Shown: piece after piece, positions 5,704 through 63,219 of the stretch
How the letters are laid out: each line of letters starts with the position of its first letter
Numbering within the stretch: the stretch's first letter is position 1
Translations under genes and position numbers: made by a program
The notes under the pieces: generated by a model
The model's database searches: none
The model's input: the letters and a program-made list of their open reading frames with translations, nothing else
What the model was told of the DNA's origin: nothing
DNA from: Medakamo hakoo
Lineage: Eukaryota > Chlorophyta > Trebouxiophyceae > Coccomyxaceae
Direction of reading: 5' to 3'
NCBI GenBank assembly: GCA_026636295.1
Contig: CP089459.1
Location: 868,001 to 932,000, forward strand
Length of the DNA: 64,000 bases

Positions 5704-7101
5704 ATGCCCCTCTCCCGCCCCGACGCCGACGATGGCGGCCTCCTGTACGCGGGCTTCAACCAGGACGGGTCGGCCCTGGCCCTGACGGACGCGACCGGCG
5801 TCCGCGTCATCTCCCTGGAAACGCACGCGGCCTGCTACGGCTCCGACCTGGGCGCGCTGCGCATCGCGGAAATGTTGCACACCTCGTCCCTGCTGGCCTA
5901 CGTGGGCGCGGGCCACGCGCCCGGCCTGTCCCCGCGCGTCCTGGCCCTGGCCAACACGGCGCGCGGCGGGGCCACCATCGCCGAACTGCCGTTTGCGGCC
6001 GCCGTGGTCCGCGTGTGCCTCAACCGGGCGAGGCTGGTGGTGCTGACCGCGTCGGGGGCGGCGCACGTCCATGCGTTGGAGTCGCTGGAGGCGCTGGCCG
6101 TCCTGCCGTGTGGGCGAGGAGGCGTGGCAGCCCTGACGGACGGCCTGGGCGGCGACCGGGGCGCGGCCGGGCGCCTGGCCCTGGCCGCGCCGGGCCCGCC
6201 CGGCGCGCCGGGGTCGCGCCACCCCCCCTCCAGCGGCCGCGTCCGCGTGTTTGAACTGCGCGACGCGCCTCGGTCGCCCGGGCCGGGCGGCGGGGCCGGC
6301 GCCCTGACGCCGTCCGTCGAGCTGGCCGCCCACCGGTCGTCCCTGGCGGCGTCCGCCTGGTCGGCCGACGGCGGGCTGCTCGCGACCGCGGGCGGCCGTG
6401 GCACGGTCGTCCGGGTGTGGTCGCTGCCGGCGGGCACGCTGGCCGGCGCGTTCAGGCGGGGCACATCGCCCGCCCGCATCACGGACCTGGCGTTTGGGCC
6501 GGCGGCGACCGCCACCGGCCGGCCGGCCGTCCTGGCGGCGGCGACCGCGCACGCGTCTGTCCACCTGTTCCGTCTGGGGGGTGGGGGTGGGGGAGGGCCG
6601 GACGGAGGCGCGCCCGGCCGTCCGTCCGCCGCCCTGGCCTCGTTCGCCCCGCCGTCCGTCGCCGCGTCCCTACTCCCACGCCGGGCCGACGCGGTCGTCC
6701 GCCTGCCCGCGCCCACGGCCGCCGCGATCGTGGCGGTGCACCGCGCGCGCGACCGGCTGGGCAGCCTGGTCGGAGACGGGCCAGGCCTGGACGGGGAGGA
6801 GGGGGAAGGCGGCGGCGAGACCCCGCCCGCTGCCACGTCGACGGGCGACTCCGCCGGCGTGACCGTGTGCGTCGTCACGGCGGAGGGCGTGCTCTACGAG
6901 TGGGGCGTGACGTGGGCGGGCGGCAGTGGTGGGAGCGGGCGGAGGAGCAGCACGGGCGGCGGCGCGGTCGCGCGCGTCGCGGCCTGGGCCAAAGGGCGGG
7001 CTGGTGGTGGTGGTGGCGGCAGCGAGTCCGGGTGCGGTGGAGGTGGGGCGACGATCTCACTGGAGCGGGAGTTGTTTGTCGGGCGGGCGGGCGGCGTGTA
7101 G
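5704..7101 (+). CDS. PROPPIN (ATG18/WIPI-type) WD40 beta-propeller
   Basis: Intronless, 465 residues. The protein opens with YAGFNQDGSALALTDATGV, the first blade typical of the family, and has the lipid-binding FRRG signature in GAFRRGTSPARITDLAFGP (around residue 250). This loop binds PI3P or PI(3,5)P2, recruiting autophagy factors to the phagophore or endosome. Later blades contain Gly/Pro-rich expansions and the C-terminus is Gly-rich. The ATG at 5704 is chosen because homology starts 14 codons later and the upstream sequence is non-protein-like. Whether it is closer to ATG18, ATG21 or HSV2/WIPI3 cannot be decided by eye. Confidence 0.87.
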   Translation: MPLSRPDADDGGLLYAGFNQDGSALALTDATGVRVISLETHAACYGSDLGALRIAEMLHTSSLLAYVGAGHAPGLSPRVLALANTARGGATIAELPFAAAVVRVCLNRARLVVLTASGAAHVHALESLEALAVLPCGRGGVAALTDGLGGDRGAAGRLALAAPGPPGAPGSRHPPSSGRVRVFELRDAPRSPGPGGGAGALTPSVELAAHRSSLAASAWSADGGLLATAGGRGTVVRVWSLPAGTLAGAFRRGTSPARITDLAFGPAATATGRPAVLAAATAHASVHLFRLGGGGGGGPDGGAPGRPSAALASFAPPSVAASLLPRRADAVVRLPAPTAAAIVAVHRARDRLGSLVGDGPGLDGEEGEGGGETPPAATSTGDSAGVTVCVVTAEGVLYEWGVTWAGGSGGSGRRSSTGGGAVARVAAWAKGRAGGGGGGSESGCGGGGATISLERELFVGRAGGV

Positions 7102-44892: not shown

Positions 44893-47800
44893 TCACGGCG
44901 TGCGGGGGGAGGGGGACCGCCCGCCACCCCAGCCCAGGGCGGTGGGCGGCGTGGAGCCGGCGACGGCGGCGGCGCCAGCGCCGGCACCGCCCGGCGGTGG
45001 CGGCGGCAGCGACAGCTCTCCATCCTCCGTCCCCGTGCGCACGGGCGGGGAAGCGCCCCGGCTGTCGGCGCCGGGGGAGGAGGCAGCCCGCGCCGGCGCG
45101 CGCGGGGGTGGGGACCAGGCAATGGGCCCCTCGTGCTGTGGCGGCGGCGGCGGCGGCGGCGGCGGTCCGGCACCACCCCCACCACCCACCCCAGGCGGCC
45201 TGGGTGGCGGCCGGGGTGGCGTCGCGCCGCGCGTGGACGACGGCCGGGCGACGGCCGGGATAGCGCGGGCGGGGGAGCCGCCGCGCGGCCCGCCCGCCCC
45301 ACCCCCTCCACCCCCACCCCCGCCACCCCCACCCCCACCCCCCGGCGTGCCCGCCCGCACGAACGCGGCCGACCCGTCATCCCCGCCCGCCCTGATCGGC
45401 CCGACCTGCAACTCCGATGGCAGAAAGACGTTGGCCGCCCGGATGTCCTTGTTCAGCTGGCGGGCCACGCGCGCCCAGTCAATGCCGACGGCAAAAGCGT
45501 GCGCGGCGCGCGCGCTCGCAAACCCCCACGCGGCTTCCAGGGCGACGCGCCGCAGGCCGGCCGCGTCCACCAGGCCCAGCGTGTGGGCTTGGACGGCCAT
45601 GCCCACGTGCGTCTTGTGGACGTGGATGCCCTCGGACCGCCACTCGGCCAGCCAGGCCGCCTTGTTGGCCTGGCGGTGGCGCAGCGCGGACAGCGTGGCC
45701 AGCACGGGGACGACCTTGTGGATGAAGCAGGCGACGAGGGGGAGGGGGGGCGGCCCGCCCGGCTTGGCGGGCGCGCACGCCCGCCTGTGCAGGGCTTCCG
45801 CGACCAGGACGTCGCCCTGGCCGTTGTCGCCCACGAAGATGACGCACGCCTCCGGCCAGCAGGAAAAGTACTGCTCCCACCGCGCCTGCTTCTTGCGGGC
45901 GAGCGCGACGTACAGGGCGTTGGTCAGGGTGCCCGGCGCCGCGCCGCGCGCGCTGGGCGGCGGCCGCCGGGTGCGGGTCACCCAGCCCGCCAGCGCGGCG
46001 GGGCCGGCGCGCAGCGAGCCCAGCAGCAGGACGGGCCAGGCGTGCAGGTCGCGCGACCGCACGAGCGGGCGGAAAATCGAACGGTACGACGACGCTTCCG
46101 TGTAGCCCTTATACGTCTCCGGCCGGGCGGACAGGAAGACGAGGTGGCCGCCGCGCTGGTGGGGGATGGACGAGCCCGGGTCGGCCGCGGGGGCGGCCCG
46201 GCCGAACGCGGCGGACAGGCCGCCGGCGCCGGACGCGGACGCGGGCGGCGGCCCCCCCCCGGGCGGCGGGCCGGCCCCCGTCCCACTCCCCGTGAACGCT
46301 GCGGCCTGGGTGACCCGGTGCCGGGCGGACTCCAGGAAGTCGGGGCGCCAGGGACCCAGGACGGCGCCGCGGATGCGGGCCGACGCCGCGCGGGCGGACC
46401 GGGCGGCGGCCGCGGCGGCCGCGTCCGCCTCGCTCGCGTCGGGGCCGGGCGTCGACACGCGCGGCGAGCGGGTGCCTGCGCCTCCGCCGCCTCCGCCGCC
46501 GCCGCCGCCGCCGCCGCCTCCACCACCCCCACTCGTCCCGGCGCTCGTGCACTCCAGGATGCGGCGGGCGTGCCCCGCATCCAGCTCGTTGAAGAAGGCG
46601 CACGCGCCCGGGTACGCCGCCCCGCGCGGCAGGCGCCGGTCCACGCCCGCGGGGTAGTGCCCGCCCGAACAGATGAGCGTGTCGTCGATGTCCGACACGA
46701 CTTTCAGCACGACGCCGGGCGGGCCGGACGGGTGGGCGGCCCGGAAGGAGGCCAGCAGGGCGGAGCCTTCGGCCGAGACGTGGGCCAGGACGGCGGCTTG
46801 GGCGGCGCCCTGGAGGTCGACGGTGGCCAGCCTGAAAAACGAGTGGTGGTCGCCGCCGTCGTCGAGGAGGGATTTGAGCCTCGTCAAATCCGCGCCGTGC
46901 GTGTGGGTGATGATGGACACGACCCACCGCTGCCGGCGCGGGCGGTGGCGCAGGCCCACCTTTTGCAGGGCGTCCACGAGCGCGGCGCGGGACAGGACGT
47001 TCAGGTCGTCCAGGCGGCCCGGGTGGTGGTGGTGGTGGTGGTGGTGGGCGTGGGCGTGGGCGGCGGCGGCGGGCGTGGACGTCGACGGGCGTGCGCCACC
47101 TCCGGCGCCGCGCCCGTCCTCACCTGCCGGTCCCGCGGGTGGGGGCGACCCCGTCGTGCTGCCGGCCTGCCGCCCGCCACCGCCGCCGGCCTCTCTCACA
47201 CCGCCAGACCCGGGGCTGGCCAGGAGGTCGACCGTGCGCGCGCCGCACACCTCCACCAGGGCGGCCAGGTTGGTCCGGGCCAGGATGTGGTTGAGCCCGG
47301 GCCGCGGCGCGGATGCCAGGATGGCGTGGATGCGGCCGCGCTCGCGGGCCAGGCCGCCAGCGGCGCGGGCGACGACCTGCGACGCCGAAACGGTCGGGCC
47401 ACGGAAGCGGGAGATGGCCGCGACCGCGGCTGCGACCGCGGCGGCCGCGCCTTCCGCTTCAGGCGAGCCTTTCAGTGCCAGGGCTTCAGGCGGGCAGAAC
47501 GGCGTCAGGGCCTGGCGCTGGACCTCGTCCTCCACCCAGGACGCGGCGAGGATCTGTGTTGGTTGACAGGGGTGCATGAGGTTGGGGAGGGGAGGGGGTG
47601 GGTCGGGGGTGGTGTGGGTGGTCGGGGGCGCGGCGCGGCGCGAATGGGCCGCGAGGGCGCGCCTCGGCTTTGGGTCCGTCGGGCGCATGGAAAATGGCAC
47701 GCATTGCGCGCGCTGTTTGCACGGCTGACGGTATGAGACGCTCAAGTCTGAGCCTGGGCATCGAGACAGGGCAGGCGGGCACTGCGCCCGGCGCCCGGCC

Positions 47801-48144
47801 GCGCGTTTGCTGACGCGCCGAGCTGGCCGCCGGCTCCATTGCAAAAAAAAAACCAAAAACGCACCGCCGACAGGACCAACCAACTAGCGTCCAGCCCGCT
47901 CAGCGTGGAGGACAGCCAGTAGCCGACAATGCCGGACGTGGCGGCCCAGTAGACCCGGCGGACGGTGCGGCTGTTTCGGTGTGGGGTGGGAGAGAGGGCG
48001 TGGCGTCGCACCGCAGAGGACCGACCGGACGGGCGCCGCGCGAGGACGCGACCCCCACTACTCTCTCCGTCCGTACCTGGTGTGTAGGGGCGTGCCATCC
48101 AGGGCGAGGTATACGATGACGGCCAGGACGGCCAACCAGAGCAT
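44893..48144 (-). CDS. APP1-type (DUF2183) phosphatidate phosphatase, membrane-anchored
   Basis: Three exons, 48144-48077, 47970-47865 and 47553-44893, encode 944 residues. Exon 1 starts with a membrane anchor (MLWLAVLAVIVYLALDG). The HAD-type catalytic blocks of APP1 are VVSDIDDTLICSGGHYPAG (DxDxT, about 345), HLVFLSARPETYKGYTE (about 530) and VIFVGDNGQGDVLVAEAL (about 630). A conserved region with CFIHKVVPVLATLSALRHR and EGIHVHKTHVGMAVQAHTLG follows. The enzyme should dephosphorylate phosphatidate to diacylglycerol. Inserts are extreme: a long Gly run (coded at 46482-46530), a His run (47024-47055) and a Gly/Pro C-terminus. Introns are 106 and 311 bp, with an A10 tract (47843-47852) near the second donor. 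Confidence 0.9.
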
Positions 48145-48532
48145 TGTGACGGGATTGGTTGAGGGCGCGACGAGAAGCGCGGGCCTTCCCGGCCATCCCC
48201 CGCCTGGGAGTTTGAGGTGTGGCCACACTGACCTTGGTCGGGGGTTGCACCTCAGACGGCGTCTTCTGTTTTTTTTTTTTTTTTGGTTCTTTCGCACTTG
48301 CTGCGCCCGTCGGACTCTGCCAGGACTCGTAGACGCTTCCCCCTATCCACTCGCGAAGGCAGCGACTCTCGGCATCTTCACTGCGAGAGACGCGCACCCG
48401 CCGCTCCCTCAGCCGAGGCCGGCGCACCTCGTTCGTCTGCGCGCGCTCGTTTGCATGCTCGCGCTCGCCGCGTCGCTCGCCCGCCGGTGCCGTCCTCCCT
48501 CCCTCGCTCGTTCCGCCGCGTCGAACAGAGCC
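48145..48532. promoter_or_regulatory. Divergent promoter region of the APP1-type and tyrosine recombinase-like genes
   Basis: These 388 bp carry a T16 tract (48269-48284), the longest A/T homopolymer in the window, followed by GGTTCTTTCG. No direct or inverted repeats marking a mobile-element end were noticed here. Confidence 0.5.
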
Positions 48533-50635
48533 ATGAGTGGTCTTTCTGCTCGTTGGATGGTGGCTGGGCCGTCACGCAGCGTCGTGGCGGTGAGCAGCGC
48601 GCCCGTGCGCGCGATGCACCGCCCGACAGCCCGTGCGCCCTCAAACCTCCACCCCGCCTCCGTCCGGCGCGCTTACCGCGCCGCGCCCGTCGTGACCGCC
48701 GCCCGGCGCCACGATGGCGCCGTCAACGCCCTGGCTGCGGCGGCCGAGGACGACGTGGACGAAGATGGGGAAGGTGGAGGGGAGGACATCCGGCCCGGCC
48801 CGCCGCGGCCAACCCCGCTCTCGCCCTCCTCTCCGGTCGCGGCCGCCATCGCGGCCGCCCGTGCTGCCGCGGGCCGCCCCACCACCGATGCGGACGCTGT
48901 GCTAGCCGACCGCCTGGAAGGCAGGGGCTTGCGCACGGCGGGCGAGGTGGCTGGGTTGAGTGCGGCGGACGCGGAAAGCCTGCGGCTGCCGGCGGACCTG
49001 CACGCCGCCCTGACCGCGGGCGTGGGCGCTTGGGAGGGCGGGCCCGAGCCGGCTGGAGCTGTGCGCGGTGGGCGGAAGGCAAAAGGCAAGGCGGCGCGGC
49101 CGGCCGCCCGCGGGTCCGCGGCCGTCGCCTCTCCCACGCTGCGCACGACGGGCGTGCCCGCTCCGTCGCCGTCCTACTCGCCGTACGACACGGCCGACCC
49201 ACCTCCCGCCGAGCCAGCCATTGCCGCCATCCAGGCCCGGCTCTGCCCGCCCATGGACCGCTTCCTGCACGGGTGCGCGACCGCGCCCGACGCCCCGCGC
49301 ATCCGCCCCCAAAGGCCCCCGACGTCCGCGCCGGCGCGCTCCATCCTCCGCGTCGCGCCCGGCACGTCCCCCCGCCTGGACGCCGACCTGGCCCGCTTCC
49401 GCAAGTTCATGACGGCCCGCGCCGCCGTCGGCCGCCAGCAGGCCGCCATCCGGCCCGTGACCGCGGCAAAGTACGAGGACCACGTCCGCCGGTGGGCGGG
49501 GTGGTGGGCGGGCGTGTGGGATGGCGGGCCGGCCGGGGGCGGGTCCGGGCCGCCCACCCCCGCCCAGGCGGCGGAGCGGGCGGCCCGCGTCTCCGTGGCC
49601 GACCTCATCCCGGGGACGGGGCCCGACGCGGCCGGCCTGGCGGTGGAGTACGCCGCCTGGCTGGAGGACGAGCGGCGGTGCACGCCCCACACGTCCGGCC
49701 TGTTCCTGCGCTCCGCCCTGGCGGCCGCCAAGTGGCTGCACGCCGGCTCATCGTCCACCCGGCCGCGGGACGGCGACAAAGCGTACGGCGACCTGGGCGT
49801 CGTCCGCGAGCTGCGCGGCCTGTCCAAGGACGCCCGGGCGGCGGGGCGCCGGGCGCCGCCGTCCGGCGACGAGCGCGTCAAGTGGCTGGAGTGGGCCGAC
49901 TACCTCGCGCTCGTCGACGACCTCAAGGCCGAGGTCGCGGGCCGGGACGCGCAGGGCCGGCCCCGGTCCCCCGCCGCCGTCGCCTGGTCGCTGCAGCGGT
50001 ACCTGGTCTTCGCCATCCTGGCGTGCGTGCCCGACCGCCAGCGCACGCTGCGCGAGCTGGAGCTGGGCCGGACGCTGGTGTGGGATCCCGCGGCGGGCGG
50101 CGGGCCGGCCGACGGCGGGCCGCCCGGCCGCTGGGTCATCCGGCACGGGCCCGACGACTACAAGACGGGCGCCGCCTACGGCGCCCGCCCGCCCCTCATC
50201 CTGTCCCCCAGCCTCTACCCGGAGCTCGGCGCGTTCATCTCGCACTACCGGGCGGCCCTCAACCCGGACGGCGGCCACGCCTTTTTGTTCTGCATGAAGA
50301 CGGGCGCGCCGCTGACGGCGCAGGCCCTCTACCGCCTGTTCCAGTGCGCGGCGTACCGCCTGACCGGCCAAAAGACAAACCCGCACCTGGTCCGGGACAT
50401 GATCGTGACGCACATCCGGGCGCGGGGCGACGCGACGGAGGCGGAGCTGGAGGCCCTGGCCCTGTACATGGGCCACTCCGTCGCCATGCAGCGGCAGACG
50501 TACGACCGCCGGACGGTGGCCCAAAAGGTGGAGCCGGCCGTGGACTTGCTGGCGCGGTTGAACGGGGAGGCGGCGGCCCAGGCGGGGTTGGGTGGTGGTG
50601 GTGGTGGTGGTGGTGGTCGTGGTGGACGCGCGTGA
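48533..50635 (+). CDS. Tyrosine recombinase (integrase)-like protein with organelle-type N-terminus
   Basis: Intronless, 700 residues. Residues 1-58 are Ser/Arg/Ala-rich without acidic residues (MSGLSARWMVAGPSRSVVAV), like a plastid or mitochondrial transit peptide. A linker follows (about 60-300), then a putative core-binding helical domain (about 300-425: FRKFMTARAAVGRQQAAIRP, TAAKYEDHVRRWAGWW). The C-terminal domain carries a tyrosine-recombinase set: the Arg cluster VPDRQRTLRELELG (R502/R504/R507), K544 in DDYKTG, H618-x-x-R621 in NPHLVRDMIVTHI, H648 in YMGHSVAMQRQ and Y657 nine residues later. Tyrosine recombinases cut and rejoin DNA through a 3'-phosphotyrosine. It ends in a Gly run and converges with the next gene after 59 bp. 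No flanking repeats were seen. It may be a host-adopted recombinase or a Crypton-like relic; its role is unknown. Confidence 0.8.
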   Translation: MSGLSARWMVAGPSRSVVAVSSAPVRAMHRPTARAPSNLHPASVRRAYRAAPVVTAARRHDGAVNALAAAAEDDVDEDGEGGGEDIRPGPPRPTPLSPSSPVAAAIAAARAAAGRPTTDADAVLADRLEGRGLRTAGEVAGLSAADAESLRLPADLHAALTAGVGAWEGGPEPAGAVRGGRKAKGKAARPAARGSAAVASPTLRTTGVPAPSPSYSPYDTADPPPAEPAIAAIQARLCPPMDRFLHGCATAPDAPRIRPQRPPTSAPARSILRVAPGTSPRLDADLARFRKFMTARAAVGRQQAAIRPVTAAKYEDHVRRWAGWWAGVWDGGPAGGGSGPPTPAQAAERAARVSVADLIPGTGPDAAGLAVEYAAWLEDERRCTPHTSGLFLRSALAAAKWLHAGSSSTRPRDGDKAYGDLGVVRELRGLSKDARAAGRRAPPSGDERVKWLEWADYLALVDDLKAEVAGRDAQGRPRSPAAVAWSLQRYLVFAILACVPDRQRTLRELELGRTLVWDPAAGGGPADGGPPGRWVIRHGPDDYKTGAAYGARPPLILSPSLYPELGAFISHYRAALNPDGGHAFLFCMKTGAPLTAQALYRLFQCAAYRLTGQKTNPHLVRDMIVTHIRARGDATEAELEALALYMGHSVAMQRQTYDRRTVAQKVEPAVDLLARLNGEAAAQAGLGGGGGGGGGRGGRA

Positions 50636-50694
50636 TGACGGCGGGGACTGGAAAACACGGCCACACTCGTTTGCTTTTTTTTTCTCTCTCCCTC

Positions 50695-52266
50695 CTACAA
50701 CATGCTCTCAATCTGGTCCGCGATAGCACTCAACTCCCGTTCCAGGCTCGCCAGCGGCGGCCGGGCGGCTGGGTCCGCGACCAGGCACGCCTTCTCCGCG
50801 CGGCGCAGGGCTTTCGCCGCCCGCCTGGCCGCCGCCCGGTCTGCGCCCCAGCTGAGGGAGGAGGCACGGGCGGGGGTGGGCGCCAGCCCAGCCCAGGCCG
50901 CCAGCTGCCCCAAGAACAGGCCGTACGCCCGCGCCTCGAACGCCTCAAACGCCCAGGCCGGGATGGCGGGCGGCGGCGAGGCGCGCTCGGGCGGGGAGGG
51001 GCGCTCCGGGTCACGGTAGGCAAAGGCGGCGCCCCAGTCCACCAGGACAGCCGGCGCGCCGCCGCCTCCTTTCCGCAAGAGCACGTTGTGGGCGTAGAAG
51101 TCGCCGTGGGCTAAGCCACGCGCGTGGCAGTGGGCCAGGCCGCCGGCGAGGGAGGCGGCGACGCGCAGCACCCGCGCCGGCGACACGCGCTCGCTCCTGC
51201 TCCGCCAGTGCGGCCGCAGCAGCGGGTCGCCGTTGGGCCGGTCGGCCAGCGGCGCCCCCGGCACCAGTTCCAGCAGTAGACCGGGCGGCGACGCAGCCTT
51301 GCTTTTCTGCGCGCGCACGACGGCTAGGACGCGGGAGAGGGCCGGGTGGTCGATGGCACGGGAGACGGCGACCTCGTCGACCGCCGCGCCGTCCGGCCCG
51401 ACGTCCGCCCGGAAGGTTTTCAGGGCGAAGGACGGGCTGGGCGGCAGGTCTGGCCGGGTGCGGGTCAGCGTGGCCACGCACACGTCTCCTGACGCGCCCG
51501 CGCCCAGTGCCGCGCCGGGCCGGACGTCGCGGCTGGGGATGGTGGGCGCAGACCCGCCACGCGCGGGGCGAGGGCGGAAGGACGCCGAGCCCGGGTTGCC
51601 GGCGTACGACACCCAGCACAGCTTGGGCGCGCGGGCCAGGCCGGGCGGGAAAGCCTCCAACCCACAGCAGGCCACGCGCAGCATTTCCAGGGCTGGCGGC
51701 GGCGGCGCGGCCGGCGGCCCTGCCAGCCCCCCCAAATCGCGCAGCCGCGGGTTGAAGGACGCCTGCACTTTCTGCAGGCTCTTGCAGGCCGCCAGCGACG
51801 CCGGCAGGCAGACCAGGTCGTTGCCGGTCAGGTACAGTTCTTTGAGCGCCGTGCAGCCGCCGATCGTGTCGGGCAGGCGGCCCAGGCCGCACCGCGCCGC
51901 GCCGAGCAGCGTCAAGTGTTTCAGCAAGCCGACCGAGTCTGGCAGCGCGCCCAGGGCCGGGTTGCCCTGGACGTTCAATTTGATGAGCTTGGGTGCGAGC
52001 GAGCCCAGGTGCTCAGGCAGGCCGGCCAAGCCGGAGCGGGACAGGTCGAGCGCCGTCAGGGCGAGCGAGGCGGGCAGGGGTGGGAGGGCGGGCGGGAGGG
52101 GTGGAGGGAGCGCGAGCGGCGCGGCCGCGCGCGCTTCGGCCACGACCGCGCGGGCCTGGGCTGGTTTTCCATCCGTCTTCCCGGCCGGGCGGGGGCGGCG
52201 GGTCTTGCGCCACACGATGACCGCGGCCCAAGCGCCCAGAGCGCCGGCCACGGCCAGGGCGGCCAT
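50695..52266 (-). CDS. Membrane-anchored LRR protein kinase of unusual type (HGD, DWG)
   Basis: Intronless, 523 residues. An N-terminal helix (ALAVAGALGAWAAVIVW) precedes basic sequence, then about six leucine-rich repeats (about 70-240: LTALDLSRSGLAGLPEHLG, LIKLNVQGNPALGALPDSVG, LKELYLTGNDLVCLPASLA). The kinase domain has a glycine loop LGAGASGDVCVA, K283 in FALKTF, HGDFYAHNVLL (D389) instead of HRD, and VDWGAAF (D410) instead of DFG. The catalytic Lys and both Asp are kept, so it may be active. Order is TM, LRR, kinase without a second helix, so the LRRs and kinase lie on the same side. An AT-rich element (TATTTAAAAAAT, 52272-52283) sits directly upstream of the start. Confidence 0.85.
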   Translation of the reverse strand: MAALAVAGALGAWAAVIVWRKTRRPRPAGKTDGKPAQARAVVAEARAAAPLALPPPLPPALPPLPASLALTALDLSRSGLAGLPEHLGSLAPKLIKLNVQGNPALGALPDSVGLLKHLTLLGAARCGLGRLPDTIGGCTALKELYLTGNDLVCLPASLAACKSLQKVQASFNPRLRDLGGLAGPPAAPPPPALEMLRVACCGLEAFPPGLARAPKLCWVSYAGNPGSASFRPRPARGGSAPTIPSRDVRPGAALGAGASGDVCVATLTRTRPDLPPSPSFALKTFRADVGPDGAAVDEVAVSRAIDHPALSRVLAVVRAQKSKAASPPGLLLELVPGAPLADRPNGDPLLRPHWRSRSERVSPARVLRVAASLAGGLAHCHARGLAHGDFYAHNVLLRKGGGGAPAVLVDWGAAFAYRDPERPSPPERASPPPAIPAWAFEAFEARAYGLFLGQLAAWAGLAPTPARASSLSWGADRAAARRAAKALRRAEKACLVADPAARPPLASLERELSAIADQIESML

Positions 52267-52427
52267 CGGTCTATTTAAAAAATACGGCGCGAGCTCGACC
52301 CCAACGTGGGGTCTGAGAGGGACACCCCCTCTCCCTCCATCCATCCACAAGAGGACATTGTTTTTTTTTCCTTGTCTTCGGATCACACAACGCACATTCA
52401 CCCACCCACGCCCATGGCCAGGCCCCT

Positions 52428-53972
52428 TCAACCCCGCGTCTCCCACAACCTCGCCATCCACCCCGCGTTCTCCCTGAACACGCGCGCGTTGAACGCCCGC
52501 CCTTCCTGGCCCGCCCGCACGCCGTTGACGGTGAGCGTGGGGTTGGACAGCACGTTCAGCCGGGGGCAGGACGGCTGGCCGCGCTCCAAGCACGGGTACC
52601 CCATCACCGACCGCCACGGCGGCCGGCCGTTGAAGGCGCGGAAGCCGTGCGCGTCCGCGTCCGGCCACGTCGACGGGTCGTGGTCGGCGTCGTGGCGCAG
52701 CCCGGCCAGGTGCCCGATCTCGTGCAGGACGGAAAACTTGGACACGCACACGTGCGAGACGAGGGCGACGGGCGAGCCCGACGACGCGGCCCGGCCAATG
52801 CCTTGGGCCAGGCCGCACAAGTCTTGCAGGTTGACAAGCATGACGGTGACGTCGGCCGCCTGCGCGTCGCGCGCGGCCGGGAAGGCCCAGTCGGCCCAGC
52901 CGTCGGACGGGGCGGCGAGGCGGGAGCGCAGCCCGAACCAGCCGTCGGCCTCGCGGGCTTCGGGGACGAGCGCCGCCCCGCCCGTCCATTGAAAGCGGGC
53001 GACGGCCGGCGGAATGCCCGACGCGGCGAGGCCTTCATTCGCCAGGTCGATGGAGTGGGCGGCGAGCGCGCGCGCCGCGGCGTCCCCGCCCACGGCGTCG
53101 CGCGTGGCGGGCGTGTACAGGAACATGACCCGGATGAGCGGGCCGGCGGCGGCGGGCGTGGGGTCGGACGACGTCTCGTTGGCGTCCGGCGCCGCGGGCG
53201 GAGGGGCAGCTTGGTCGGGCGAGCCCGCCCCCTCCTCCGCCGGCGCGGGCAGCCCGGCCCGCAGCGCGGCCTCCGCCTCGTCGTCAGGCGGGAAGGCGGC
53301 CTCGTCGATGGCGACCAGGGCGACGACGGCCCCGCTTCCAGGCCCGTCAGGGCGGTGGAGCGAGCCGGACGAGCCGGGCGGGCCCTCCCCGCTCGCGGTG
53401 GCGGCGGACGACACCGGCAAGGCTGGTGGAGCCACGGACGAGCCAGGCACGACCGTGCGGAGGGCCCACGCCCGCCCGCCGGCCCGGATGGTGCCGGCCA
53501 CCGCACCGTCCACCAGGGTGATGACCGCTTCACTCGCAGGCGTGCCCGGCTCCACGCCGGGCAGGCCGGAGACGGAGCCGACCCAGGTCAGAGACCCGGG
53601 CACCGCACCCGCTTCCAGGCGGGCGCGCGTCAGCGTCAGCGCGGGCGGCGGCGGGGACGCGACTGACGCGGCTTCCGGACCGGCAGCGCCCTCCATCCAG
53701 CCGGCGGGCGCGGGCGGGATGGCCGAGCCCAGGGGAAGCGTCAGGGCGGGCTCGGCCAGGGCGGACGGCGAGAGGGAGGCGAGCGCGACGGACGCAGACC
53801 CCGGCGCGGCCTCGAGCGCCGAAATCACGTCTCCCGGCGAACCCGGCCCGCCACCCGCCGCGGCAGCAGACCGGGCTTGGGCAGGGGTGAGCGGGACGAG
53901 GAGCGGGGGTGGGGCGTCGGCGGCGCACGCCGCCAGGGCGGCGCAGGCCAACAAGGCGGCCAGGCGGAGCAT
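52428..53972 (-). CDS. Secreted zinc metalloprotease (metzincin, reprolysin-like)
   Basis: Intronless, 514 residues. A signal peptide (MLRLAALLACAALAACAADA) is followed by a ~270-residue propeptide-like region rich in Ala/Pro/Gly. The catalytic domain starts at LIRVMFLYTPATRDAVGG, with HSIDLANEGLAASGI, a DVTVMLVNLQDLCGLAQGIG block, and the zinc site HEIGHLAGLRHD (H417, E418, H421, H427), followed by the Met-turn SVMGYP. This arrangement resembles bacterial reprolysin-like and M72-type secreted peptidases more than plant matrix metalloproteases. Base composition matches neighbours, so any transfer would be old. The role could be extracellular matrix or cell-wall turnover. Confidence 0.87.
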   Translation of the reverse strand: MLRLAALLACAALAACAADAPPPLLVPLTPAQARSAAAAGGGPGSPGDVISALEAAPGSASVALASLSPSALAEPALTLPLGSAIPPAPAGWMEGAAGPEAASVASPPPPALTLTRARLEAGAVPGSLTWVGSVSGLPGVEPGTPASEAVITLVDGAVAGTIRAGGRAWALRTVVPGSSVAPPALPVSSAATASGEGPPGSSGSLHRPDGPGSGAVVALVAIDEAAFPPDDEAEAALRAGLPAPAEEGAGSPDQAAPPPAAPDANETSSDPTPAAAGPLIRVMFLYTPATRDAVGGDAAARALAAHSIDLANEGLAASGIPPAVARFQWTGGAALVPEAREADGWFGLRSRLAAPSDGWADWAFPAARDAQAADVTVMLVNLQDLCGLAQGIGRAASSGSPVALVSHVCVSKFSVLHEIGHLAGLRHDADHDPSTWPDADAHGFRAFNGRPPWRSVMGYPCLERGQPSCPRLNVLSNPTLTVNGVRAGQEGRAFNARVFRENAGWMARLWETRG

Positions 53973-61238: not shown

Positions 61239-63080
61239 TCAGTACAAGCCTTGCGCCCGGGCCGCGGCCTGCAACCTCGCCTCGGCCGCCGCGGCCAGCT
61301 GGGCCCGCCGGGCCGCCGCCGCGGCGCCGCCGTCGCCGCCGCCTCCCCTCACCTGGCCTGGTTGGCGCCCGCCAGCCGGCCGGGCCGCCTTGCCCAGCGC
61401 CAGCGCCGCGGCCGCGGCCGTCGCCGCCTCGACCTCGGCCGCCGCCCTCGCCTCGGCCGCCTCCTTTTTGGCGGCGGCGGCCGCTTTGCGCTCCTTCTCC
61501 GCCGCCCGGGCCCGGGCTTTTTTGTCCGCGGCTTTAGCAGCCTGGGCAGCCTCGAGTGCGGGCGTCAGCGCAGACGGCACGCCGGCCGCGCCCAACCAGT
61601 CGACGGCGCCAGGCGCCGCGGCGGCCGCGCGCCGAAACGCGTCGCGCGTGGGGCGGTCCGCCGCGACGGCGTAGGCCGTCCGGCCGGCGCCGTCCTTCAG
61701 CAGGGCCGCCGTCGGGTCAGATGCTAAAATCGTGGCGACGGCAGCTGCGTCGCCCGCCCGGGCGGCCGCGTGCAGCGGCGGGTCGGGCGGAGGGGGGGCC
61801 GGCCCCTCCCCCTTCAGGTGGGCCGTGCCCTTGGCGGCCGGAGGCGGGGGCGGGGGCGCAGTGCTGGCCGGCCTGGCCACCGCCGCCCTCGCCACCTTGG
61901 CCTCCGGGCCCGGCACCGTGAACACGGTCAACAGCGCCCGCACCACCCGGCGGGCCTCCGAAAACGTCGGGCGGCGCACGGGGAAGGGCACGCCCCGCAC
62001 GCGCGGGTCGCGCCGGTCCAGGCGGGGGTCGCCCCCGTCCGGCCGCCCGGCCCCCCTGAAAATGGAGGCCGCATTGGCGACGCCGGGCGCGTGCACAAAG
62101 ATGCGGGACGCCCGCGCCAGGGCCGGGCCCCACTCCCCCAGCGTCGCCCGGATGTCCGCGTCCAGCGCCGCTTCGTTGTACCGCCGCAGGCTCGACCCCG
62201 CGCTTTTGATGGCCTTGCCGCTGGCGTCCTTGGCGGACTGGCGGCCGCCCGCCTTGGCGCGGACGACGTACCGGTGGGCGGTGCGGTGGAGGACCGGGCG
62301 GAAGAGGGGCGGGGCGTGGGCCGGCGCGGGCGACGGGGTGGGGGGCGGCGGCGGCGCGTCCGCGACCTCCACCACCGCCGCCGCAAAGTGCCCGCCTTTG
62401 GCCAGGATGACGGCCCAGGGCGCCTGGGACGCGCGCAGTGCGCTCAGCGCGGCGGCGGGCTCTTCCCCCGACCCGCTGCCCGGCAGGAGCGCCCGCCACA
62501 CCGCGAAAAAGGGCGGGGCGTCAGGCATGCCGGGCGGGGACGCAAACGTGGCGAGCGGGCCTGTGGAGGCGGCCGCCGCCGCACCGCGCCCGTCGCCGCC
62601 GCCGTCCGGCTCGTCATCGTCGTCGTCGGAATCGCTGCCAGACAGGGAGGAGACGTCAGAGGCACCGCCGTCGCCGCCGCCGCCGCCGCCGCCCCGCTGC
62701 GCGCTCAGCACGCGCTCCGCTTCCTCCACGCCCAGCGGCGGCTTGCCCGCCGCCGCCCGCCGCACGTTCAGCCGGTGCGCGTCGGACCGGGCGTGGTCGC
62801 GCTGGGCGGCCACGGAGGGGAAGGGCGGCGTCGTGGAGCCGGGCGTGCCGATGGCGCAGGCGCGGCAGGTCAGGCCCGCGTCGGTGGAGGTGGAGGCGGC
62901 GGAGGTGGAAGGAGGCGGCCGAGCAGCGCCGCCGCTCTCTCGTTGCGCGACCGCCGCCGCCGCCGCTGCTGCAGCCGCCGCGGCGTCGTCGGACGCGTCG
63001 GACCCATCCGCGGGCCGGGCGCCCGCGAACAGCGCGGGCGGCAGCTGGAACAGCGTGCCAAGCTGCACGGCGCCACCCAT
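61239..63080 (-). CDS. VMS1: VMS1/ANKZF1-type peptidyl-tRNA endonuclease of ribosome quality control
   Basis: Intronless, 613 residues. A C2H2-like zinc finger (LTCRACAIG then QRDHARSDAHRLN) lies near 75-110. The VLRF1 domain has FFAVWRALLP, APWAVILAKGGHFAAAVVEV, YVVRAKAGGRQSAKDASGKA and SAGSSLRRYNEAALDADIRA. The GxxQ catalytic loop (GGRQ) is intact. Ankyrin repeats (PLHAAARAGDAAAVATILAS, TAYAVAADRPTRDAFRRA) and a long charged Ala-rich coiled coil follow, ending in a basic region in place of a clear VCP-interacting motif. VMS1 releases stalled nascent chains by cutting tRNA on 60S subunits. The ATG at 63080 is the first in frame. Confidence 0.92.
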   Translation of the reverse strand: MGGAVQLGTLFQLPPALFAGARPADGSDASDDAAAAAAAAAAAVAQRESGGAARPPPSTSAASTSTDAGLTCRACAIGTPGSTTPPFPSVAAQRDHARSDAHRLNVRRAAAGKPPLGVEEAERVLSAQRGGGGGGGDGGASDVSSLSGSDSDDDDDEPDGGGDGRGAAAAASTGPLATFASPPGMPDAPPFFAVWRALLPGSGSGEEPAAALSALRASQAPWAVILAKGGHFAAAVVEVADAPPPPPTPSPAPAHAPPLFRPVLHRTAHRYVVRAKAGGRQSAKDASGKAIKSAGSSLRRYNEAALDADIRATLGEWGPALARASRIFVHAPGVANAASIFRGAGRPDGGDPRLDRRDPRVRGVPFPVRRPTFSEARRVVRALLTVFTVPGPEAKVARAAVARPASTAPPPPPPAAKGTAHLKGEGPAPPPPDPPLHAAARAGDAAAVATILASDPTAALLKDGAGRTAYAVAADRPTRDAFRRAAAAAPGAVDWLGAAGVPSALTPALEAAQAAKAADKKARARAAEKERKAAAAAKKEAAEARAAAEVEAATAAAAALALGKAARPAGGRQPGQVRGGGGDGGAAAAARRAQLAAAAEARLQAAARAQGLY

Positions 63081-63219
63081 CGTCAAAGTGAAGAGGGCGA
63101 GCGTGTTTCTTTCTTCCTGTGCTTCTCACTCTTCCTTTTTCGGACGGCCTGTGTGTTGGCACCCCATCCCAGAGAGGGCGCGGAGAGGCACACGCACACC
63201 CAACACCCACACACCACCA

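Follow-up and report, generated by a model that had tools for sequence, protein, structure and literature searches.

Results

A tyrosine recombinase gene in a green-algal nuclear genome

We analysed a window of 64,000 nucleotides from the green alga Medakamo hakoo (contig CP089459.1, positions 868,001 to 932,000; positions below count from the window's first letter) and found on its plus strand a gene whose product combines a sterile alpha motif (SAM) domain with the fold and complete active site of a tyrosine recombinase. The initial annotation had drawn this gene as a frame of 700 residues (48533..50635). The frame is indeed free of stops over its 700 codons, but two more ATGs lie in frame upstream, at 48455 (26 codons further 5') and at 48116, and the first of these is probably the true start, giving a gene at 48455..50635 that stays open until the stop at 50633-50635 and encodes 726 amino acids. 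We prefer ATG 48455 because its 26 extra residues look like the N-terminal end of P0002, the closest homologue (similarity score 44, equalled in 64 of 5000 shuffles); residue numbers nonetheless follow the 700-residue frame throughout. The next open reading frame (ORF) downstream, on the minus strand with its stop at 50695, lies 59 bp away, as had been noted. A GGT repeat at 50585-50636 ends the recombinase gene, where it encodes a glycine run, and a similar simple repeat occupies 47013-47073 in a neighbouring gene.

An AlphaFold model of the protein (mean predicted local distance difference test score 78.2, confident in the domains) matches the structures of XerA and Cre and contains both parts of the recombinase fold. 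The core-binding, or clamp, domain spans residues 275-443 (49355..49861), inside the alignments with Cre (model residues 275-678) and XerA (281-676); the catalytic domain, residues 444-680 (49862..50572), is delimited by the structure model, the structural alignments and conservation, its mean majority-residue frequency being 0.67 against 0.37 for residues 1-96. Ahead of the recombinase part, and overlooked by the initial annotation, stands the SAM domain, with its characteristic fold, at residues 97-171 (48821..49045).

The R-K-HxxR-H-Y set that defines the tyrosine recombinase superfamily is present in the correct order, and we followed it through 121 proteins, the query and the 120 homologues listed of 311 found. 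Arg502 (50036..50038), which we take to be the Arg I position from the motif R..TL..L and its spacing, is kept in 120 with one gap; Lys544 (50162..50164) in all 121; His618 and Arg621 of the HxxR box (50384..50395) in 121 each; His648 (50474..50476) in 120, the last protein having Arg; and the nucleophile Tyr657 (50501..50503) in 120 with one gap. The neighbouring Arg504 and Arg507 are both conserved in 121 of 121. Every catalytic position is where the initial annotation had put it, and no loss of the set appears among these homologues, each residue being retained in at least 120 of the 121.

Library profiles recognise the family less readily. Pfam Phage_integrase (PF00589), the kind of model against which a search had been proposed, does match the window protein (E=0.012), but at 15.8 bits it falls below the cut-off of 27.1; a PHROGs integrase profile matches at E=0.0027, and the NCBIfam XerC/XerD/XerA models (NF001399, NF040815) give at best 15 bits against cut-offs of 279 and 220. 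PF00589 is a precomputed domain in some homologues, yet two that carry it, P0010 and P0016, score only 24.9 and 25 bits here, while the three closest cyanobacterial proteins exceed the cut-off with 41-53 bits. Sequence searches of the PDB returned no recombinase. Given such weak profile matches, it is the conservation among homologues and the structure model that carry the identification; together they make it almost certain that the protein has the recombinase fold with an intact active site, and they predict catalysis.

Distribution among eukaryotes

A first search yielded four close homologues, and a profile of the C-terminal part then yielded the 311 (E<=10), the weakest of the 120 listed matching at E=7e-95. 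Named holders are Micractinium, Chlorella (ohadii, vulgaris, variabilis and sorokiniana), Parachlorella, Coccomyxa, Elliptochloris, Trebouxia, Nannochloris and Botryococcus; further named holders are Chlamydomonas (UWO 241 and incerta), Chromochloris, Raphidocelis and Monoraphidium, and outside the algae the amoebae Acanthamoeba castellanii and Balamuthia mandrillaris, an amoeba-seeded search giving at least 33 matches. The orthologue search suggested by the initial annotation has therefore found the gene, catalytic set kept, in many named Chlorophyta and two amoebae, and the family is not confined to green algae. Labels of named members among the matches listed are hypothetical, uncharacterized or domain-only. 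Two entries are odd in another way: P0118, whose record names an uncultured bacterium of the genus Salinisphaera, has a Sec20 domain fused to the recombinase and is probably a mis-binned, mis-modelled eukaryotic contig, and P0126, a Chlorella sorokiniana 'saccharopine dehydrogenase isoform B' that also matches the recombinase, is probably a fused gene model.

Relatives on cyanobacterial plasmids

Across 84,980 bacterial and archaeal species (one genome each), a scan seeded by two conserved peptide patterns returned 73 stretches and, from these, 9 confirmed loci, all 9 cyanobacterial by title. An unseeded tblastn search of 72,556 plasmids with the Chlorella vulgaris orthologue agreed with this picture, giving 20 records at E<=1e-5, one place each and 20 of 20 cyanobacterial, with plasmids of Aulosira laxa (AP018311; 41% identity, E=1e-84) and Nostoc sp. 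HK-01 (AP018324; 41%, E=2e-81) as best matches; the protein of Nostoc sp. C057 (NZ_CP040290) is 38% identical, all three figures applying to ~380 residues. With the Aulosira protein as query, 22 plasmid records (23 places) were matched, again all cyanobacterial: two Nostoc plasmids at 78% and 72% identity, and the others, itself excepted, at 22-29%. The algal protein is thus a nearer relative of the Aulosira/Nostoc group than those other plasmid recombinases are. Six of 386 sampled genomes from the phylum of Elainella, Elainella among them, matched at E<=1e-10, a sporadic occurrence that fits expectation for plasmid genes. We also considered an origin from a giant virus or phage and set it aside: no relative was matched in 50,697 phage records, and none was confirmed in viral contigs by two scans seeded with exact peptide patterns.

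The closest plasmid proteins (Aulosira and the two Nostoc) have the same Arg502, Lys544, His618, Arg621, His648 and Tyr657 as the algal protein; they differ in being plasmid-borne, in their N-terminal region and in having no Pfam SAM match and no presequence. Over the 15 cyanobacterial proteins taken into a tree, Arg502, Lys544, Arg621, His648 and Tyr657 are kept in 15 of 15, and His618 in 10 (four have Lys, one Gln). In Elainella the recombinases occur as tandem pairs (L012, 2367-4067 and 4072-5859; also L023 and L024), both L012 proteins having Lys for His618; these may be a mobile or a two-subunit version.

The tree (44 eukaryotic and 15 cyanobacterial proteins, 367 columns, LG+F+R4) drew its cyanobacterial members from nine of the 20 plasmid matches, five proteins of four of the nine GTDB loci and one of the 386-genome sample, the Planktothrix region being left out. 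It splits the sampled eukaryotes from the sampled cyanobacteria with an ultrafast bootstrap of 99, and sets eukaryotes, the Aulosira/Nostoc group and one uncultured cyanobacterium apart from the remainder with a support of 82; Aulosira/Nostoc is the nearest group provided that the root lies among the other cyanobacteria. The amoebae cluster with P0125 (support 95), and their placement, as sister group of the greens as a whole or within the early-branching greens, is weakly supported (84 and 77). The level of identity, the E-value of 1e-84 and the tree together indicate common ancestry, and we consider it very probable that the algal gene shares its origin with these plasmid recombinases. Transfer from such a plasmid into eukaryotes is most likely, a direction suggested, rather than the reverse, by the deeper divergence among the cyanobacterial proteins. 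Cryptons and DIRS elements had been named as the usual kin of eukaryotic copies; the nearest bacterial relatives are instead recombinases of cyanobacterial plasmids.

A candidate recombination site

Upstream of the gene, the three closest plasmids have in common an inverted repeat of 31-33 bp with 11-base arms and one mismatch; between its end and the annotated start codon lie 292 bp in Aulosira, 290 bp in Nostoc HK-01 and 298 bp in Nostoc C057. The 37,388-base HK-01 plasmid, searched in full, and the Aulosira plasmid, searched over 50,000 of its 56,669 bases, each have this one such locus, and 100 shuffles produced none. In blastn against the 72,556 plasmid records it occurs once each in four at E<=1e-5 (nine more, at E=4, are at chance level): the three closest plasmids and a mobilizable plasmid of Nostoc commune HK-02. 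The last (AP018330, our L042) has the site at 6001-6033, possibly served by another plasmid's enzyme; no recombinase of this family was found on it at E<=1e-5.

A short, near-perfect palindrome of such size is the architecture of loxP and dif sites, which makes this one a candidate cleavage site. Two of the three plasmids have an annotated ParA gene (HK-01 has none among all 36 features viewed; C057 was viewed for 11 kb), in keeping with a role in maintenance. Two points weigh against this assignment: further integrases are annotated on two of these plasmids, and the palindrome could be an operator, a half-site being present closer to the gene. In that event it would be the recombinase's own operator, the plasmid enzyme would integrate DNA instead of resolving multimers, and the algal protein would have inherited an integration-type activity. 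The distance of 290-298 bp, the half-site and the mobilizable plasmid that has the site with no family recombinase found on it suit this alternative; the loxP/dif-like form at one locus per plasmid, and the failure to find a phage or viral relative, speak against it, and we hold it to be unlikely. The palindrome has no match in the alga's nuclear genome (16 contigs) with up to three mismatches, a result without bearing on organelle DNA, and its half has none in the viral contigs.

The N-terminus and possible import into organelles

An acid-poor N-terminus of about 58 residues had been described, and the first acidic residue is in fact number 61; read from ATG 48455, the presequence-like segment would comprise 86 residues without Asp or Glu (48455..48712), a designation that draws on composition and on the N-termini of homologues. 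The SAM core is reached by 112 proteins; removing redundancy leaves 89, and in 61 of those the core is preceded by 60 residues or more. In 35 of these 61 long models the first 35 positions include no more than one Asp or Glu, where 3.7 models were expected and 300 draws from the same proteins gave at most 10.

R-x-[FY]-[SA] is a mitochondrial cleavage motif and VxA a motif of plastid type. The former occurs in 13 of the 61 (0 of 500 shuffles), a figure inflated by related lineages, for which reason we use the dereplicated count, in which 8 of 36 groups have it where 3.2 would be expected (13 of 1000 shuffles), a moderate enrichment. A wider mitochondrial motif, R.[FYL][SAT], shows no clear enrichment (22 of 61 against 17.4; 14 of 36 groups against 9.8), and a reversed control motif is found in 8 of 61 against 5.0. 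Amoebae, which possess the gene, have no plastids, and this favours mitochondria. On these sequence patterns, import of the recombinase into an organelle is likely, with a weak lean towards mitochondria.

Several observations pull the other way. The presequence count comes from 61 of the 89 non-redundant proteins; the annotated Acanthamoeba protein has an acidic start (net -2 over its first 40 residues); and in Elliptochloris, Botryococcus, Chromochloris, Raphidocelis and Chlamydomonas UWO 241 the models start directly with the SAM domain, either because those gene models are wrong or because the presequence is really absent. Such models would suit a recombinase or DNA-binding regulator that acts in the nucleus, its fold retained for nuclear DNA as in domesticated Crypton proteins, for which DNA binding or protein interaction is a proposed role (PMC3212892). 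Set against the acid-poor N-termini of 35 of the 61 long models, a nuclear role seems to us distinctly improbable.

The lean towards mitochondria is itself opposed by VxA, which before dereplication is found in 20 of 61 against 12.4 (13 of 1000 shuffles). The same enzyme might then be imported into plastids, where it would resolve multimers of plastid DNA or flip the inverted repeat, a view that overlaps our own wherever the latter leaves the organelle open. A cyanobacterial affinity fits a plastid ancestor, presequence-like N-termini are present in green algae, and the plastid genome of Heterosigma is described as encoding a tyrosine recombinase for which dif sites have been proposed (PMC2410131). 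The occurrence of the gene in amoebae that have no plastids argues against this version, as does VxA after dereplication, which is not significant (10 of 36 groups against 7.5; 172 of 1000 shuffles), and we regard plastid import as a rather unlikely alternative.

Copy number and surroundings

Tyrosine recombinases in eukaryotes are often parts of mobile elements, and many near-identical copies with flanking repeats would have pointed to one. Across the alga's own genome (15,638,232 bases in 16 contigs), a six-frame search with 11 of 11 candidates scored found a single copy; a Phage_integrase search of the same genome gave 0 candidates, missing even this gene, and being uninformative on copies was not used. 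The repeat search of 46500-52500 found, in agreement with the initial annotation, no terminal repeats at the gene ends. What it returned was a run of GGT/GGC and pairs of short, GC-rich, imperfect repeats 20-52 nt long (a listing without a chance control); a few pairs straddle the gene with one member per side, none placed as a terminal repeat. The Pfam matches of the 17 ORFs scanned in the window include no reverse transcriptase or transposase, leaving none of the multiple copies, terminal repeats and partner genes of Crypton or DIRS elements. Pfam scans covering the window protein together with 19 of its eukaryotic homologues and 3 proteins from cyanobacteria gave no DUF3504 match, with a library in which the presence of that model is unconfirmed. 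A Crypton or DIRS origin is disfavoured by the lack of a reported DUF3504 match, the single copy and the lack of terminal repeats.

That the gene is part of a still-active mobile element (Crypton, DIRS, plasmid or virus remnant) would accord with the frequent placement of eukaryotic tyrosine recombinases in such elements (PMC3212892) and with the presence of DIRS in Chlamydomonas (PMC8226300). The single copy, the bare gene ends, the 17 ORFs, the want of viral or phage relatives in the contigs and records searched, and the appearance of 18 nameable species once each among the 120 of 311 matches listed all oppose it, and it is highly improbable. The idea of a host-retained enzyme that may act on organelle DNA survives in part: single copy, lack of terminal repeats, conserved catalytic set and the presequence-like N-termini of many homologues favour it, while the nearest bacterial relatives are of cyanobacterial-plasmid type.

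The neighbours look ordinary: a kinase with leucine-rich repeats (Pkinase, E=6.4e-8) and weak APP1-like and metallopeptidase matches, in a window whose G+C content ranges from 66 to 79% in 2-kb steps. An ORF at 61239-63125 on the minus strand strongly matches the bVLRF1 release-factor domain (Pfam, E=5.7e-43), a domain named for Bacteroidetes, here in a green-alga nucleus. The genome has 23 matches to chlorophyll a/b-binding genes, and one translated piece matches LHCII chlorophyll a-b binding proteins in the PDB, which belong to the green lineage. Medakamo hakoo is described as an ultrasmall trebouxiophyte with 18 contigs (2 organellar), 15.81 Mb, 72.7% G+C and 16 chromosomes (PMC9871001).

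Discussion

Our preferred reading, to which we give a probability of roughly one half, is that the gene encodes a host-retained eukaryotic resolvase of plasmid type, its active site intact, which is probably imported into an organelle and most likely resolves multimers of organelle DNA. A plasmid-type recombinase would have been captured by eukaryotes and there have gained a SAM domain, with a presequence at the N-terminus as well in many algae. By inference from Cre and Xer, four protomers would synapse two copies of a short palindromic site; Tyr657 would cleave, with Arg502, Lys544, His618, Arg621 and His648 seated in the active site; and strand exchange through a Holliday junction would resolve direct repeats or invert inverted ones. 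On a plasmid such a reaction would keep monomers, and the same job would suit a circular or concatemeric organelle genome. The presequence would make organelle DNA the substrate, mitochondrial somewhat more probably than plastid, and the SAM domain may stabilise the tetramer through contacts between protomers, or recruit it. For multimer resolution as such, which we argue by analogy, we see the odds as evenly balanced.

A larger claim, which we advance tentatively, is of a patchy, ancient eukaryotic lineage of nuclear-encoded, predicted-active, organelle-imported resolvases of Xer/Cre type, taken once from a cyanobacterial plasmid, fused to SAM and keeping mitochondrial or plastid DNA monomeric at a dif-like site, which would amount to an unrecognised dedicated system. 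Uptake may perhaps have come with the plastid's ancestor, followed by passage to or from amoebae.

The algal protein has the fold and active-site order of the Xer recombinases (XerA, XerD and XerH) and of Cre, and presumably the same reaction, but identity in the structural alignments is 11-17% and NCBIfam Xer scores fall far under their cut-offs. Organelle-linked tyrosine recombinases (TyrC), for which multimer resolution has been proposed, offer a likeness in being tied to organelle DNA (PMC2410131, PMC9235467). As described there, TyrC proteins have 298-318 amino acids, are organelle-encoded and have mainly Firmicutes as bacterial relatives, a description by which we set them apart, whereas the algal protein is nuclear, of 726 amino acids, bears a SAM domain and is nearest to cyanobacterial plasmids. 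The domesticated Crypton recombinases, or DUF3504 genes, are likewise eukaryotic, host-retained and derived from tyrosine recombinases; the account in PMC3212892 has them losing the catalytic tyrosine and second arginine, residues of a set that the algal protein keeps. The literature covered, titles and abstracts on the theme with most subscription journals outside that scope, contained no nuclear-encoded, SAM-bearing recombinase like this one.

If our reading is right, it would add a host-retained eukaryotic tyrosine recombinase with its active site intact, unlike the domesticated Crypton genes as described in PMC3212892, and a plasmid-borne type of enzyme, rather than a chromosomal housekeeping gene, would be common to cyanobacteria and eukaryotes. 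It touches the question of how organelle chromosomes stay segregating units and whether site-specific recombination contributes, and for that question the family offers a candidate gene conserved in green algae that are simple to culture, a relative from bacteria open to testing in E. coli, and a candidate site.
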